Of a stretch of 64,000 nucleotides of DNA, positions 35,023-38,681 are shown one piece after another. The translations under genes and the position numbers were made by a program. The notes under the pieces are model-generated. The model made no database searches. It saw nothing but the letters and a program-made list of their open reading frames with translations, and had not been told where the DNA came from. Position 1 is the first letter of the stretch. Each line of letters begins with the position of its first letter. Source of the DNA: Spirochaetaceae bacterium. Its GTDB lineage: Bacteria; Spirochaetota; Spirochaetia; WTKD01. The stretch lies in contig WTKD01000006.1 of assembly GCA_011524535.1 (NCBI GenBank), forward strand, positions 105,601 through 169,600, written 5' to 3'.

Positions 35023-35367
35023 TTAGTCGGGGAGTTCACCCAGACGATAGATGGGTTTCAAATCGTAGGCGGGCACTTCATAGGGGTGAGATTCTATCAA
35101 TGCTTCGATCACAGCTTCTACTTTTTTTCGAGGACAAATCGTCTCTACTCTGAGCTCGGGGACGAGGGATCTTTCGCCTACCTTTCCAATATATGGGGTG
35201 CTCGTCTGTTGAGGAACAAACTGACCAACTCCCAACACCTCCCAGCAGGATTCTGCGTATCCTTTTTCACTTCCCGCTCCCGACTGAAAAATCGCTTTTT
35301 TTACTTTCTCTGCATGTCGTATAGGAACAAAAAAAGTTAGTCGGTAGGCGGTGAATCCATCCATCAT
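35023..35367 (-). CDS. NIF3-like PII/CutA-fold domain protein
   Basis: A 114-residue protein matching the PII-like insert domain of NIF3/YqfO proteins as a stand-alone unit: YRLTFFVPIRHAEKVKKAI, GAGSEKGYAESCWEV, GVGQFVPQ, IGKVGE, LRVETICP and HPYEVPAYDL. The His-Pro-Tyr-Glu motif is diagnostic. The molecular role is not known; the fold is often oligomeric and may sense metals or small ligands. It lies three bases after the malate dehydrogenase stop, so it is probably co-transcribed. Confidence 0.85.
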   Translation of the reverse strand: MMDGFTAYRLTFFVPIRHAEKVKKAIFQSGAGSEKGYAESCWEVLGVGQFVPQQTSTPYIGKVGERSLVPELRVETICPRKKVEAVIEALIESHPYEVPAYDLKPIYRLGELPD

Positions 35368-35370
35368 AGA

Positions 35371-36300
35371 TCAAAGACTGTTCAATAAAGTTATGCCTTG
35401 TTGCACTGCTTCTGCAGATTTTTTGAGGGCTGTTGATTCTTCATCATTTAGAGGGAGTTCGAATATTTTTTCTACTCCTTCGGAACCGAGTAAGACGGGA
35501 ACCCCGAGATACAAATCTGAGTAGCCGTATTCTCCAGTGAGGTAGGCGGAGATAGGAGAAACCGTTTTTGTATTGCTGAGGACCGCGTGTACCATTTTTG
35601 CAGTTGAAGCCGCTGGGGCATAATAGGCGCTACCAGTTTTTAGATGGTTTACTATTTCTGCGCCACCGGTTCTCGTTCTATCAACCATAGAATCGATTGC
35701 TTTTTTGTCCAAAATTTCGGTGATAGGAATGCCAGAAATAGTGGTATATCTCGGAAGAGGAACCATTGTATCGCCATGTCCACCGAGAACCATGGCAAAC
35801 ACATCTTCTGGAATGGTACGCGTTGCTTCGGCGATAAAGTATCTAAAGCGTGTTGCATCGAGGATACCGGCCATTCCGAACACGCGTTTATGGGGGAACC
35901 CCGTTTCCTTCAGACAAACCATGGCGATGACATCGAGAGGGTTCGCAACCGCAATGACGATAGAATCGGGGGCATAGGTGAGAATAGCTTTGGCTGCTTT
36001 GCGTGCGATGTCTACGTTTATTCGAAGGAGGTCCATACGATCCATGCCGGGTTTGCGAGCTATACCCGCTGTGTGGACAACAATATCAGCGTTTTTGATT
36101 GCCTCATAATCGTTGCTACCGGTTATGGTCACCCCAAATCCCTGGAGTCGGTCGACATGTGAAAATTCCTGAGCTCGGCTTTGTGGTAACCCTGGGACTA
36201 CGTCTATGAGTACAACATCTGCAATTCCTTGACTAGCAACAAAATAGGCGGTCGAAGAACCGACATTTCCAGCACCGATGATGGCAACTTTTTTTCTCAT
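35371..36300 (-). CDS. mdh: Malate dehydrogenase, LDH-like type
   Basis: The 309 residues form an NAD-dependent LDH/MDH fold enzyme interconverting malate and oxaloacetate. GAGNVGSS binds NAD. The substrate loop has ARKPGM with Arg at the position that is Gln in lactate dehydrogenases, which favours malate. NPLDV, GILDATR (Asp, Arg) and LGGHGDTM with the catalytic His are intact. It follows, with a four-base overlap, a degenerate paralogue. Fumarase diverges from the pair, so malate metabolism is grouped here. Confidence 0.9.
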   Translation of the reverse strand: MRKKVAIIGAGNVGSSTAYFVASQGIADVVLIDVVPGLPQSRAQEFSHVDRLQGFGVTITGSNDYEAIKNADIVVHTAGIARKPGMDRMDLLRINVDIARKAAKAILTYAPDSIVIAVANPLDVIAMVCLKETGFPHKRVFGMAGILDATRFRYFIAEATRTIPEDVFAMVLGGHGDTMVPLPRYTTISGIPITEILDKKAIDSMVDRTRTGGAEIVNHLKTGSAYYAPAASTAKMVHAVLSNTKTVSPISAYLTGEYGYSDLYLGVPVLLGSEGVEKIFELPLNDEESTALKKSAEAVQQGITLLNSL

Positions 36301-37208
36301 AATAGCTCCTTAGCTAGAGATGCAATCTCGGTTTCTGCTTTTTTAAGGAGCTCTTGAGAAGAGGTGGAGAGGGTTGGGGTTCTTTCTTCGAGATGTAAAG
36401 TGCCATTGTATCCAAATACATAATGTGGTTTGCCGACAGCAACACCCGTCTGACTATCGGGGACTGCAACAGGAATTATTTGAGGAGCTGCATTTACGAT
36501 GCTTTTCAATAAGGATGTACAGCAGGCAGCCGGCCCATAGAAGGGGTAATTTCGCTGTGTAAGTTGAAGAAAATCATTGTCGTAATTTTTAACGGTATTC
36601 GCAATTTCTTCAAATTTTTTCTCGGTCATTAAACTTGTGATTGGAATGCCAGAAACACTTACATAGTCTGTGTCCATTATCGTTGTCCCGCCGTGGTGGC
36701 CAAGTACGGTCGCACTAACATCACTGCTATTGATAGATAGCGATGTAGATAAGAGCGATGAAAGCCTCACACTATCTATATAGCTACTCATTGTGATTAG
36801 ACGATCTCGTATCTTTGGTATCTTCATCCCGAGATATGTTGTTATTATTTCAAAAGGTTCGCTTGCGACAACAATGGGGGATTCTGACTGACTCAATGGT
36901 TCCAAATAGGGCTCGAGCGTTGCGACTGTCTTCCGTGCTCGCTCCAATGTACTTGATTCGGTATCAGAACTATTGCCAAGGGCGAGGACTATGGCGTCTT
37001 TTTTAATAAGGTCTACAAGATCTGTTGTAGGAGAGATATATGTGCTGTATTTTCTGATTGGAGCTGCTTCGAGAAGATCTAGCGATTTTCCAGTAGCGAT
37101 TCCAGATTCTTCGTGAAATATATGTACGAATCCAATATGCTGTTCCGCGAGGAAGAAAGCAATATTGGCACCCATGTCATTTGCTCCGATGATTCCAATT
37201 GTTCCCAT
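36297..37208 (-). CDS. Degenerate malate/lactate dehydrogenase paralogue
   Basis: A 303-residue relative of the adjacent MDH with conserved fold signs. IIGANDMGANIA replaces GAGNVGSS. SYIDSVR keeps the Asp-Arg pair and GHHGGTTIM keeps the catalytic His, followed by VSVSGIPIT. The substrate-binding ARKPGM loop is lost (NSSDTESS), and the NPLD Asn becomes SEPF. It may be a pseudoenzyme or act on another substrate, perhaps as a partner of the intact MDH. It overlaps that gene by four bases and comes first in the operon. Confidence 0.7.
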   Translation of the reverse strand: MGTIGIIGANDMGANIAFFLAEQHIGFVHIFHEESGIATGKSLDLLEAAPIRKYSTYISPTTDLVDLIKKDAIVLALGNSSDTESSTLERARKTVATLEPYLEPLSQSESPIVVASEPFEIITTYLGMKIPKIRDRLITMSSYIDSVRLSSLLSTSLSINSSDVSATVLGHHGGTTIMDTDYVSVSGIPITSLMTEKKFEEIANTVKNYDNDFLQLTQRNYPFYGPAACCTSLLKSIVNAAPQIIPVAVPDSQTGVAVGKPHYVFGYNGTLHLEERTPTLSTSSQELLKKAETEIASLAKELL

Positions 37209-37274
37209 GGCATTTACTTATAGTATACGTTACCATGGTATGAGCGTCATCTGATGCTGTCAATGAGGAACACT

Positions 37275-38681
37275 ATGTCAAACAAAAAAAAATTATCGAA
37301 GGGTGAGACGCGAACAGAACACGATAGTATGGGGGGGGTAAGCATCCCCGGCGATGCTTATTGGGGAGCGCAGACAGCTCGAGCGATCGACAATTTTGAT
37401 ATATCGAATCATAGAATACCGCCCAGTATGATTGTTGCGTTGGGATTGATCAAGAAACACGCAGCGATTACCAATGCAAACCTCGATCTCATTCCAAAGG
37501 ACATCAATAGGGTTATTGTGGAAGCGGCTGATGAAATTATTGCAGGGACATGGAATAACCAATTCCCACTGGACGTGTTCCAAACGGGCAGCGGAACCTC
37601 ATGGAATATGAACGCCAACGAATTAATTGCAAATCGTGCCAATCAGTTGCTTGGGATGGATTTAGGAACTCGCTCTCCGGTACATCCAAACGATCATGTA
37701 AATCGCGGTCAATCTTCTAATGATGTGATTCCAACCGCGGTGCATATTGCCAATCGACTTGATGTTTCTGGATTGATTGCATCTCTGCAAAAATTGATTG
37801 AAAGCATAGAAAAAAAAGGGAAGGAGTATGCGGATGTGGTAAAGCTTGGAAGAACACATGCACAAGATGCGGTTCCCATGACCGTTGGTCAGGAGTTTTC
37901 TGCCTTTGCTACGCAATTTCTAAAAGCAAAAGAGCGTATCCAACGATGCCTGCCTTCTCTTGAGGAACTTGCCTTGGGAGGGACCGCTATTGGCACCGGA
38001 TTAAACACTCACCCAGACTACAAAGAGGCTGTTATACAGGGTATTGCAAAAGAAACAGATATTCCATTTCGTCCAGCAGACAATACATTTGAGGCTATTG
38101 CTGCTCGAGATGCTCAGGTAGAACTCATGGGAGCTTTGAATGTTTTAGCGACGGCTTTGATGAAAATCGCAAATGATCTTAGACTTCTTGCCAGTGGCCC
38201 GCGCGGGGCTTTGGGCGAAATACAATTGCCCACGTTACAGCCAGGATCTTCGATCATGCCTGGAAAAGTGAATCCTGTGATCCCGGAAATGCTCATTCAA
38301 GTAGCTGCGCACATTTCAGGAAAGGCGGTTTCGGTAAGTATTGCGGGACAACATGGTCCTCTACAGCTGAATATGATGCATCCGCTTATTGTGTTTGAAA
38401 CCAGTGAATCTATTCTTATTCTTAAAAATGCAATAGACGCCCTTCGCACACGTTGCATAGACGGCCTAACGGTTGACGAGGAACGTATGGCTTCATGGAT
38501 CGAATGGTCTTTAGCCTTAGTTACTCCATTAGCGCTTGAGATAGGGTATGATGCAGCGGCAACCCTGGCTTATAGAGCCTTCACAGAAAAGAAAAAAATT
38601 AGAGATATACTAGAAGAAGAAAAAATTCTCCCCCCTGAAAAAATAGCAGCGCTGTTAGATCCAAAAAATATGATTCCCTAG
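37275..38681 (+). CDS. fumC: Fumarate hydratase, class II
   Basis: The oxygen-stable fumarase interconverts fumarate and malate. The 468 residues have DSMGGVSIPGDAYWGAQT, GSGTSWNMNANE, HPNDHVNRGQSSNDVIPT, GRTHAQDAVP and the flexible loop GSSIMPGKVNPV with the catalytic Ser. ATG 37275 follows AGGA; an in-frame ATG at 37254 would add seven residues. It is divergent from the MDH pair by 66 bases. Confidence 0.95.
   Translation: MSNKKKLSKGETRTEHDSMGGVSIPGDAYWGAQTARAIDNFDISNHRIPPSMIVALGLIKKHAAITNANLDLIPKDINRVIVEAADEIIAGTWNNQFPLDVFQTGSGTSWNMNANELIANRANQLLGMDLGTRSPVHPNDHVNRGQSSNDVIPTAVHIANRLDVSGLIASLQKLIESIEKKGKEYADVVKLGRTHAQDAVPMTVGQEFSAFATQFLKAKERIQRCLPSLEELALGGTAIGTGLNTHPDYKEAVIQGIAKETDIPFRPADNTFEAIAARDAQVELMGALNVLATALMKIANDLRLLASGPRGALGEIQLPTLQPGSSIMPGKVNPVIPEMLIQVAAHISGKAVSVSIAGQHGPLQLNMMHPLIVFETSESILILKNAIDALRTRCIDGLTVDEERMASWIEWSLALVTPLALEIGYDAAATLAYRAFTEKKKIRDILEEEKILPPEKIAALLDPKNMIP

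Follow-up and report, generated by a model that had tools for sequence, protein, structure and literature searches.

Malate dehydrogenase (MDH) is a textbook homo-oligomer. For the LDH-like (type 3) MDHs, represented by the enzymes of Chloroflexus (1guy/4cl3), Chlorobium (1guz/1gv0) and Thermaerobacter (7aob), an A+B dimer has been reported as the minimal catalytic unit (PMC4250060). Among other enzymes, the eukaryotic NAD-dependent isocitrate dehydrogenase (IDH3 alpha/beta/gamma, or IDH1/IDH2 in yeast) joins a catalytic subunit to a paralogue in which the modified site takes up an effector and passes the signal on through the heterodimer interface (PMC5241874). The deoxyhypusine synthase of trypanosomatids is a heterotetramer with a dead paralogue, in which activity is raised about 3000-fold (PMC3663545). 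For the gene pair discussed here, both can serve as analogies of how such an enzyme might work: the isocitrate dehydrogenase is unrelated in fold and reaction, and the synthase is a different enzyme from eukaryotic parasites. We found no description of a tandem or heteromeric bacterial MDH in the open-access literature.

The locus lies in a 64,000-nucleotide stretch of a Spirochaetaceae contig (WTKD01000006.1), the whole of which is referred to here as the window. In it, a canonical mdh gene is joined by the gene for a variant paralogue, which we designate MDH′; both ORFs are intact and read on the minus strand (Table 1). A preliminary description of the window had reported an MDH in tandem with a paralogue whose gene overlaps it. 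Both points hold, since the MDH scores above the TIGR01763 cut-off and the two genes share 4 bp (ATGA). The paralogue had been taken for the second gene, but in transcription order MDH′ lies upstream and is the first. A ribosome-binding-like motif, AAGGAG, is found inside the MDH′ gene five bases ahead of the MDH start, and together with the ATGA overlap it makes translational coupling of MDH′ and MDH likely. Overlaps of −4 and −8 are of a kind enriched among genes encoding the subunits of heteromeric complexes (PMC10666635). On the opposite strand, fumC starts 45 bp from the pair. The 114-aa ORF on the other side of the pair, a possible third gene of the transcript, matched P-II only below threshold (E=0.003), and it was not seen adjoining the MDH′-MDH pair at the other loci compared.

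Table 1. Features of the MDH′-MDH locus (positions within the window)
Feature	Position	Strand	Basis
MDH′ gene, for a 303-aa variant paralogue of malate dehydrogenase; comes first in the pair	36297..37208	−	ORF, profile, AF2 and fold matches
mdh gene, for a 309-aa canonical type-3 (LDH-like) malate dehydrogenase; comes second in the pair	35371..36300	−	TIGR01763 and catalytic residues
ATGA stop/start overlap (36300-36297) and AAGGAG at 36311-36306	36297..36311	−	sequence
GAA codon, Glu117 of MDH′, at the catalytic-Asn position (NPLD to SEPFE)	36858..36860	−	sequence, alignment
Degenerate substrate-loop region of MDH′, GNSSDTESSTLERA; relatives have GAxRxPGMKREDLF	36933..36974	−	alignment; residue-by-residue match inside the loop uncertain
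Segment of MDH′ in helix alphaC of the dimer interface (residues 36-54, GIATGKSLDLLEAAPIRKY); 11/12 family-conserved sites kept	37047..37103	−	model and conservation
fumC, class II fumarase, divergent; also adjoins the pair in many spirochaete copies	37254..38681	+	ORF, neighbourhoods
114-aa ORF, 3 bp past mdh; membership of the unit uncertain	35023..35367	−	weak sub-threshold P-II-like match

In a profile search, the window MDH reached 401.2 bits against the TIGR01763 equivalog model (cut-off 351.85). In the alignment it has the full catalytic set (Arg81, Arg87, Asn, the Asp-Arg pair, His and GxGxxG/Asp), and it is the sole Ldh_1_N match of the genome. On these grounds we assign it as a canonical LDH-like (type 3) malate dehydrogenase. 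Another contig of the genome carries gltA, lpd, sucB, sucA, sucD, sucC, sdhB and sdhA in a single run (G000:C5:48431-59791, L196), and the organism therefore seems to operate a TCA cycle, with a need for MDH; these gene names come from similarity to the compared pair loci and from sequence.

The window MDH′ matches TIGR01763 over its full length (E=7e-32), but with 110.9 bits it is far under the cut-off. In Pfam only a C-terminal domain match was obtained (PF02866, E=9.5e-9), and the 86 bits against the L-lactate dehydrogenase model TIGR01771 lie below its cut-off of 303.55. Alignment with MDH bears out what the preliminary description had said of the active site, namely that the catalytic His (His172) and the Asp-Arg pair (Asp145, Arg148) are retained while the ARKPG loop and the Asn of NPLD are not. 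The Asn is replaced by Glu117 (NPLD becoming SEPFE), and ARKPGMDR corresponds to GNSSDTESST in a loop that is not alignable residue by residue. The window MDH′ also lacks the NAD-ribose Asp32, now His; its GxGxxG motif reads GANDMG, the middle Gly having become Asn; and neither the dicarboxylate-binding arginines nor the NAD-site residues are present.

An AlphaFold2 model of the window MDH′ has the complete MDH fold (mean pLDDT 92.5, pTM 0.91), a prediction partly supported by the supplied alignment. The nearest PDB folds found by Foldseek are the LDH-like MDHs named above (TM 0.84-0.91), with which the sequence is collinear. Together with the PF02866 match, these comparisons give MDH′ the full-length LDH/MDH superfamily fold, with a Rossmann domain and an Ldh_1_C domain. 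A sequence search found no solved MDH′ structure.

At the catalytic-Asn position, 64 non-redundant MDH′ sequences have 62 Glu, one Asp, one Gly and no Asn, against Asn in 54/54 paired MDHs. MDH′ differs from the LDH-like MDHs in having Glu for an invariant catalytic Asn in all lineages, and in always having a canonical MDH as its partner gene. Of the 64 sequences, 63 have an intact GxGxxG and Asp32, the window copy being the sole exception, and we therefore consider the Asn-to-Glu change to be old and general and the wider decay in the window to be recent and local. Loss of the substrate loop is likewise, judging by the alignment, confined to the window MDH′. Loss of the Asn and the loop as a single event was considered and rejected, since the former change is ancestral to the family and the latter specific to the window. 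Arg81, Arg87, Asp145, Arg148 and His172 are all kept in 48/64 MDH′ sequences. At least one of them is lost in 16/64, compared with 0/53 scorable paired MDHs (Fisher p=4.5e-5, relatedness uncorrected), and those 16 fall in several separate lineages, with losses extending up to both catalytic partners. The earlier label "pseudo-paralogue" therefore suits the window copy but suits the family less well, as the 48 members with all five residues differ mainly by Asn to Glu. Arg81 is present in 61/64, so most MDH′ do not show the Gln for Arg at the specificity position that marks L-lactate dehydrogenases.

Outside the cassette, the nearest homologues of the paired MDH are the single-gene MDHs of Desulfobacterales and WOR-3, which group apart from it in the tree (SH-aLRT 96) and lack MDH′. 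The clearest positions separating MDH′, paired MDH and single MDH are in alphaB (Phe18, Tyr, and Gln or Arg, respectively) and alphaC (Glu47, His and mostly Glu); in the paired MDHs the Tyr is invariant and the His nearly so. The Glu/His difference in alphaC is only suggestive because single MDHs also have Glu there, and we know of no single MDH that is hetero-oligomeric.

The tandem was looked for in relatives and is present both in Spirochaetia and in at least four other lineages. A match was obtained in 14 of 41 genomes searched, counting that of the window, with the full tandem in three relatives; apart from the window's own genome, those searched came from outside its order. A sample of 297 Spirochaetia genomes, which included Borrelia-like and Treponema-like members and in which the named matches are Spirochaetes, had the tandem in about 40; in the 30 that were read out, MDH′ precedes MDH on the same strand in every case (30/30). 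A scan of ~85,000 species genomes gave 71 loci, from Spirochaetes, Desulfobacteraceae, WOR-3, an Acidobacteria MAG and two unclassified bacteria. Wherever a locus is not cut by a contig end, MDH′ immediately precedes MDH in the same orientation; the spacing lies between −8 and +35 bp except at three loci, and is never more than 145 bp. No orphan MDH′ gene was found among the loci, five of which (L100, L113, L118-L120) are cut by contig ends; the MDH half at L117 is from the same MAG as L113. WOR-3 has the pair in 11/147 genomes, in one of which (G584) both genes are at contig ends, and the phylum of loci L095 and L102 has an MDH′ match in 5/80. Among 194 sampled Desulfobacterales only one has the pair; an MDH match was obtained in 155, nearly always to a single plain MDH. 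Nearly all carriers are metagenome-assembled genomes. A plasmid search returned 128 records, with every match below 60% identity. In one genome an MDH′ match (G112:C28:14081-14983) has a single in-frame TAA, a possible pseudogene or assembly error.

Phylogenies of both genes showed a branching order common to MDH′ and its paired MDH. In both trees WOR-3 comes first, then Acidobacteria together with L095 and L102, then Spirochaetes, with Desulfobacteraceae nested inside the latter. A quick-method tree of 94 sequences, supported by SH-aLRT only, separates MDH′, paired MDH, single MDH and LDH with three label changes, the minimum possible; that MDH′ forms one clade in it depends on the root. Distances among MDH′ and among MDH proteins are correlated (r=0.79, 31 pairs; 0/5000 permutations as high), also within the spirochaete group alone (r=0.71), and MDH′ evolves at about twice the rate of MDH. 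From the matching deep order and the correlated distances, the pair can be taken as an ancient duplication inherited as a unit, with at least one transfer between phyla, and on this sequence evidence MDH′-MDH is one ancient co-inherited cassette. Local tandem duplication was rejected as the origin of the pair, since a deep branch parts MDH′ from all other MDHs and MDH′ proteins from different phyla group together. Vertical descent in Desulfobacteraceae was also rejected, given the single carrier among the 194 Desulfobacterales and the position of its MDH inside the spirochaete group, apart from the single MDHs of the order.

The recurrence of the pair in several phyla argues that MDH′ is probably not a stray pseudogene but a subunit dedicated to its MDH partner. 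With moderate confidence, we read MDH′ as a partner subunit, non-catalytic or ligand-binding, within a hetero-oligomeric MDH; in the window organism it would have been reduced to a structural subunit. The cassette would then encode a hetero-oligomeric LDH-like (type 3) malate dehydrogenase, with MDH as the catalytic subunit and MDH′ as a paralogous partner that completes a dimer or tetramer with it. With Glu in place of the Asn that touches the C2 oxygen of the substrate, MDH′ would no longer catalyse the malate/oxaloacetate hydride transfer. In most species, where the dinucleotide site and the arginines are kept, the former active site may still bind a dinucleotide and a C4-dicarboxylate, and MDH′ is therefore probably a ligand-sensing or stabilising subunit acting across the dimer interface. 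The window MDH′, having lost some NAD-site residues and the loop and kept the fold and the interface helices, is most likely a purely structural partner. We infer physical association of the two proteins, absence of catalysis in MDH′ and regulation; obligate adjacency, fixed order, co-inheritance and the one-sided loss of catalytic residues favour the idea of a mixed oligomer, which the preliminary description had offered (as mixed tetramers) beside activity on another 2-hydroxy acid. The well-kept alphaC sites of the window copy and the placing of the clearest separating positions in alphaB and alphaC also speak for it. As in IDH3, two paralogous proteins are encoded and inherited together, judging from genes and trees, and by this analogy the role of MDH′ is probably like that of the gamma subunit of NAD-dependent isocitrate dehydrogenase. 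Two points count against the partner-subunit reading. The full five-residue set in 48/64 MDH′ proteins and the NAD motif in nearly all go beyond what a purely structural subunit would need, and adjacency and co-inheritance are also compatible with two enzymes of one pathway. A bolder version, which we put forward only tentatively, is that this is the first hetero-oligomeric MDH known in bacteria: an ancient regulatory subunit, arisen by duplication and the Asn-to-Glu change, would sense a TCA metabolite at its former active site and tune its partner, the two having moved between phyla as a unit, and would have become a pure scaffold in the window lineage.

The chief alternative is that MDH′ is an independent NAD(H)-dependent dehydrogenase of the same pathway, acting on a C4-dicarboxylate other than malate or oxaloacetate. 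Glu117 would select this substrate, which might, for example, carry an amino group at C2 or be a malate substituted at C3. Most members of every lineage examined retain Arg81, Arg87, Asp145, Arg148, His172, Asp32 and GxGxxG; a dicarboxylate is therefore the probable ligand, and the machinery for hydride transfer may be functional. The surroundings in WOR-3 (L109-L116) also point this way. There, two LarA-family (lactate-racemase-family) genes flank or adjoin the pair, followed by genes for a GcvH-like protein and for an FAD-linked oxidase that contains Fe-S and CCG domains. This is a 2-hydroxy-acid context and a possible 2-hydroxy-acid racemase/dehydrogenase operon. Outside WOR-3, however, the pair has ordinary TCA-cycle neighbours, and the phyla share no further pathway genes around it. 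The order in many Spirochaetes is fumC (divergent), MDH′, MDH, gltA, lpd, sucB and sucA, or else the pair adjoins sdhA; in Desulfotignum, isocitrate dehydrogenase is near the pair. Moreover, His172, Asp145, Arg81 or Arg87 has been lost repeatedly in several lineages while the gene and its linkage stay. For the window MDH′ activity on another substrate is implausible, because the dicarboxylate-binding arginines and NAD-site residues have been lost. Overall, we regard an independent enzyme as unlikely.

For the window copy, decay must also be weighed, i.e., a functionless gene that merely happens to survive in a genome as small as 1.42 Mb. The terminal branch of the window MDH′ is very long (4.84), whereas the branches of its relatives have a median of 0.04 and reach 1.03 at most; those of other window genes are 1.10 (fumC), 1.38 (lipoamide dehydrogenase) and 0.64 (MDH). 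Cofactor and substrate residues are gone, and the upstream frame could stay open for the sake of translating the essential, overlapping mdh. However, the 303-codon ORF is intact, with start and stop, and is coupled to mdh. The window MDH′ also keeps 38 of 59-62 sites that are at least 90% conserved in other MDH′ proteins. The conserved positions that it has lost include NAD and substrate positions, and the best-kept stretches are residues 11-22 (alphaB), 36-54 (alphaC) and 181-190. In alphaC, 11/12 such sites are kept, compared with 27/47 elsewhere (p=0.04, a marginal value for a comparison chosen after the data were seen). Helix alphaC in LDH/MDH enzymes packs across the two-fold of the basic dimer, and we take alphaB and alphaC of MDH′ to be dimer-interface helices, by established family knowledge rather than from inspected coordinates. 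The full-length fold of this very fast-evolving protein, too, is predicted confidently, in part owing to the supplied alignment. Functionless decay is, in our judgement, improbable. Finally, MDH′ is always upstream and often overlapping, but that it serves only mdh expression, as a translational coupling leader, or as a folding aid is highly improbable, as a 300-residue folded protein conserved across phyla far exceeds the needs of coupling and some pairs are 83-145 bp apart.

If the partner-subunit reading is true, several bacterial phyla have a central TCA enzyme in a regulated or hetero-oligomeric version that has so far escaped notice. The TIGR01763 model does separate most MDH′ proteins tested, those of L050, L065, L102 and L104 scoring 260-313 bits, under its cut-off, and only the WOR-3 MDH′ of L110 scoring above it (368.9 bits). 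The broad NCBIfam model NF004863 (PRK06223), however, places all five of these over its cut-off with the label malate dehydrogenase, and the variant is therefore hidden in public annotation. The active sites of MDH′ range from almost complete to heavily eroded, and so also offer a natural series in which to study the change from an enzyme to a pseudoenzyme subunit. At two loci (L038:1501-2406 and L108:1298-2209), the catalytic pair of MDH′ is swapped, Asp145 being replaced by His and His172 by Asp.
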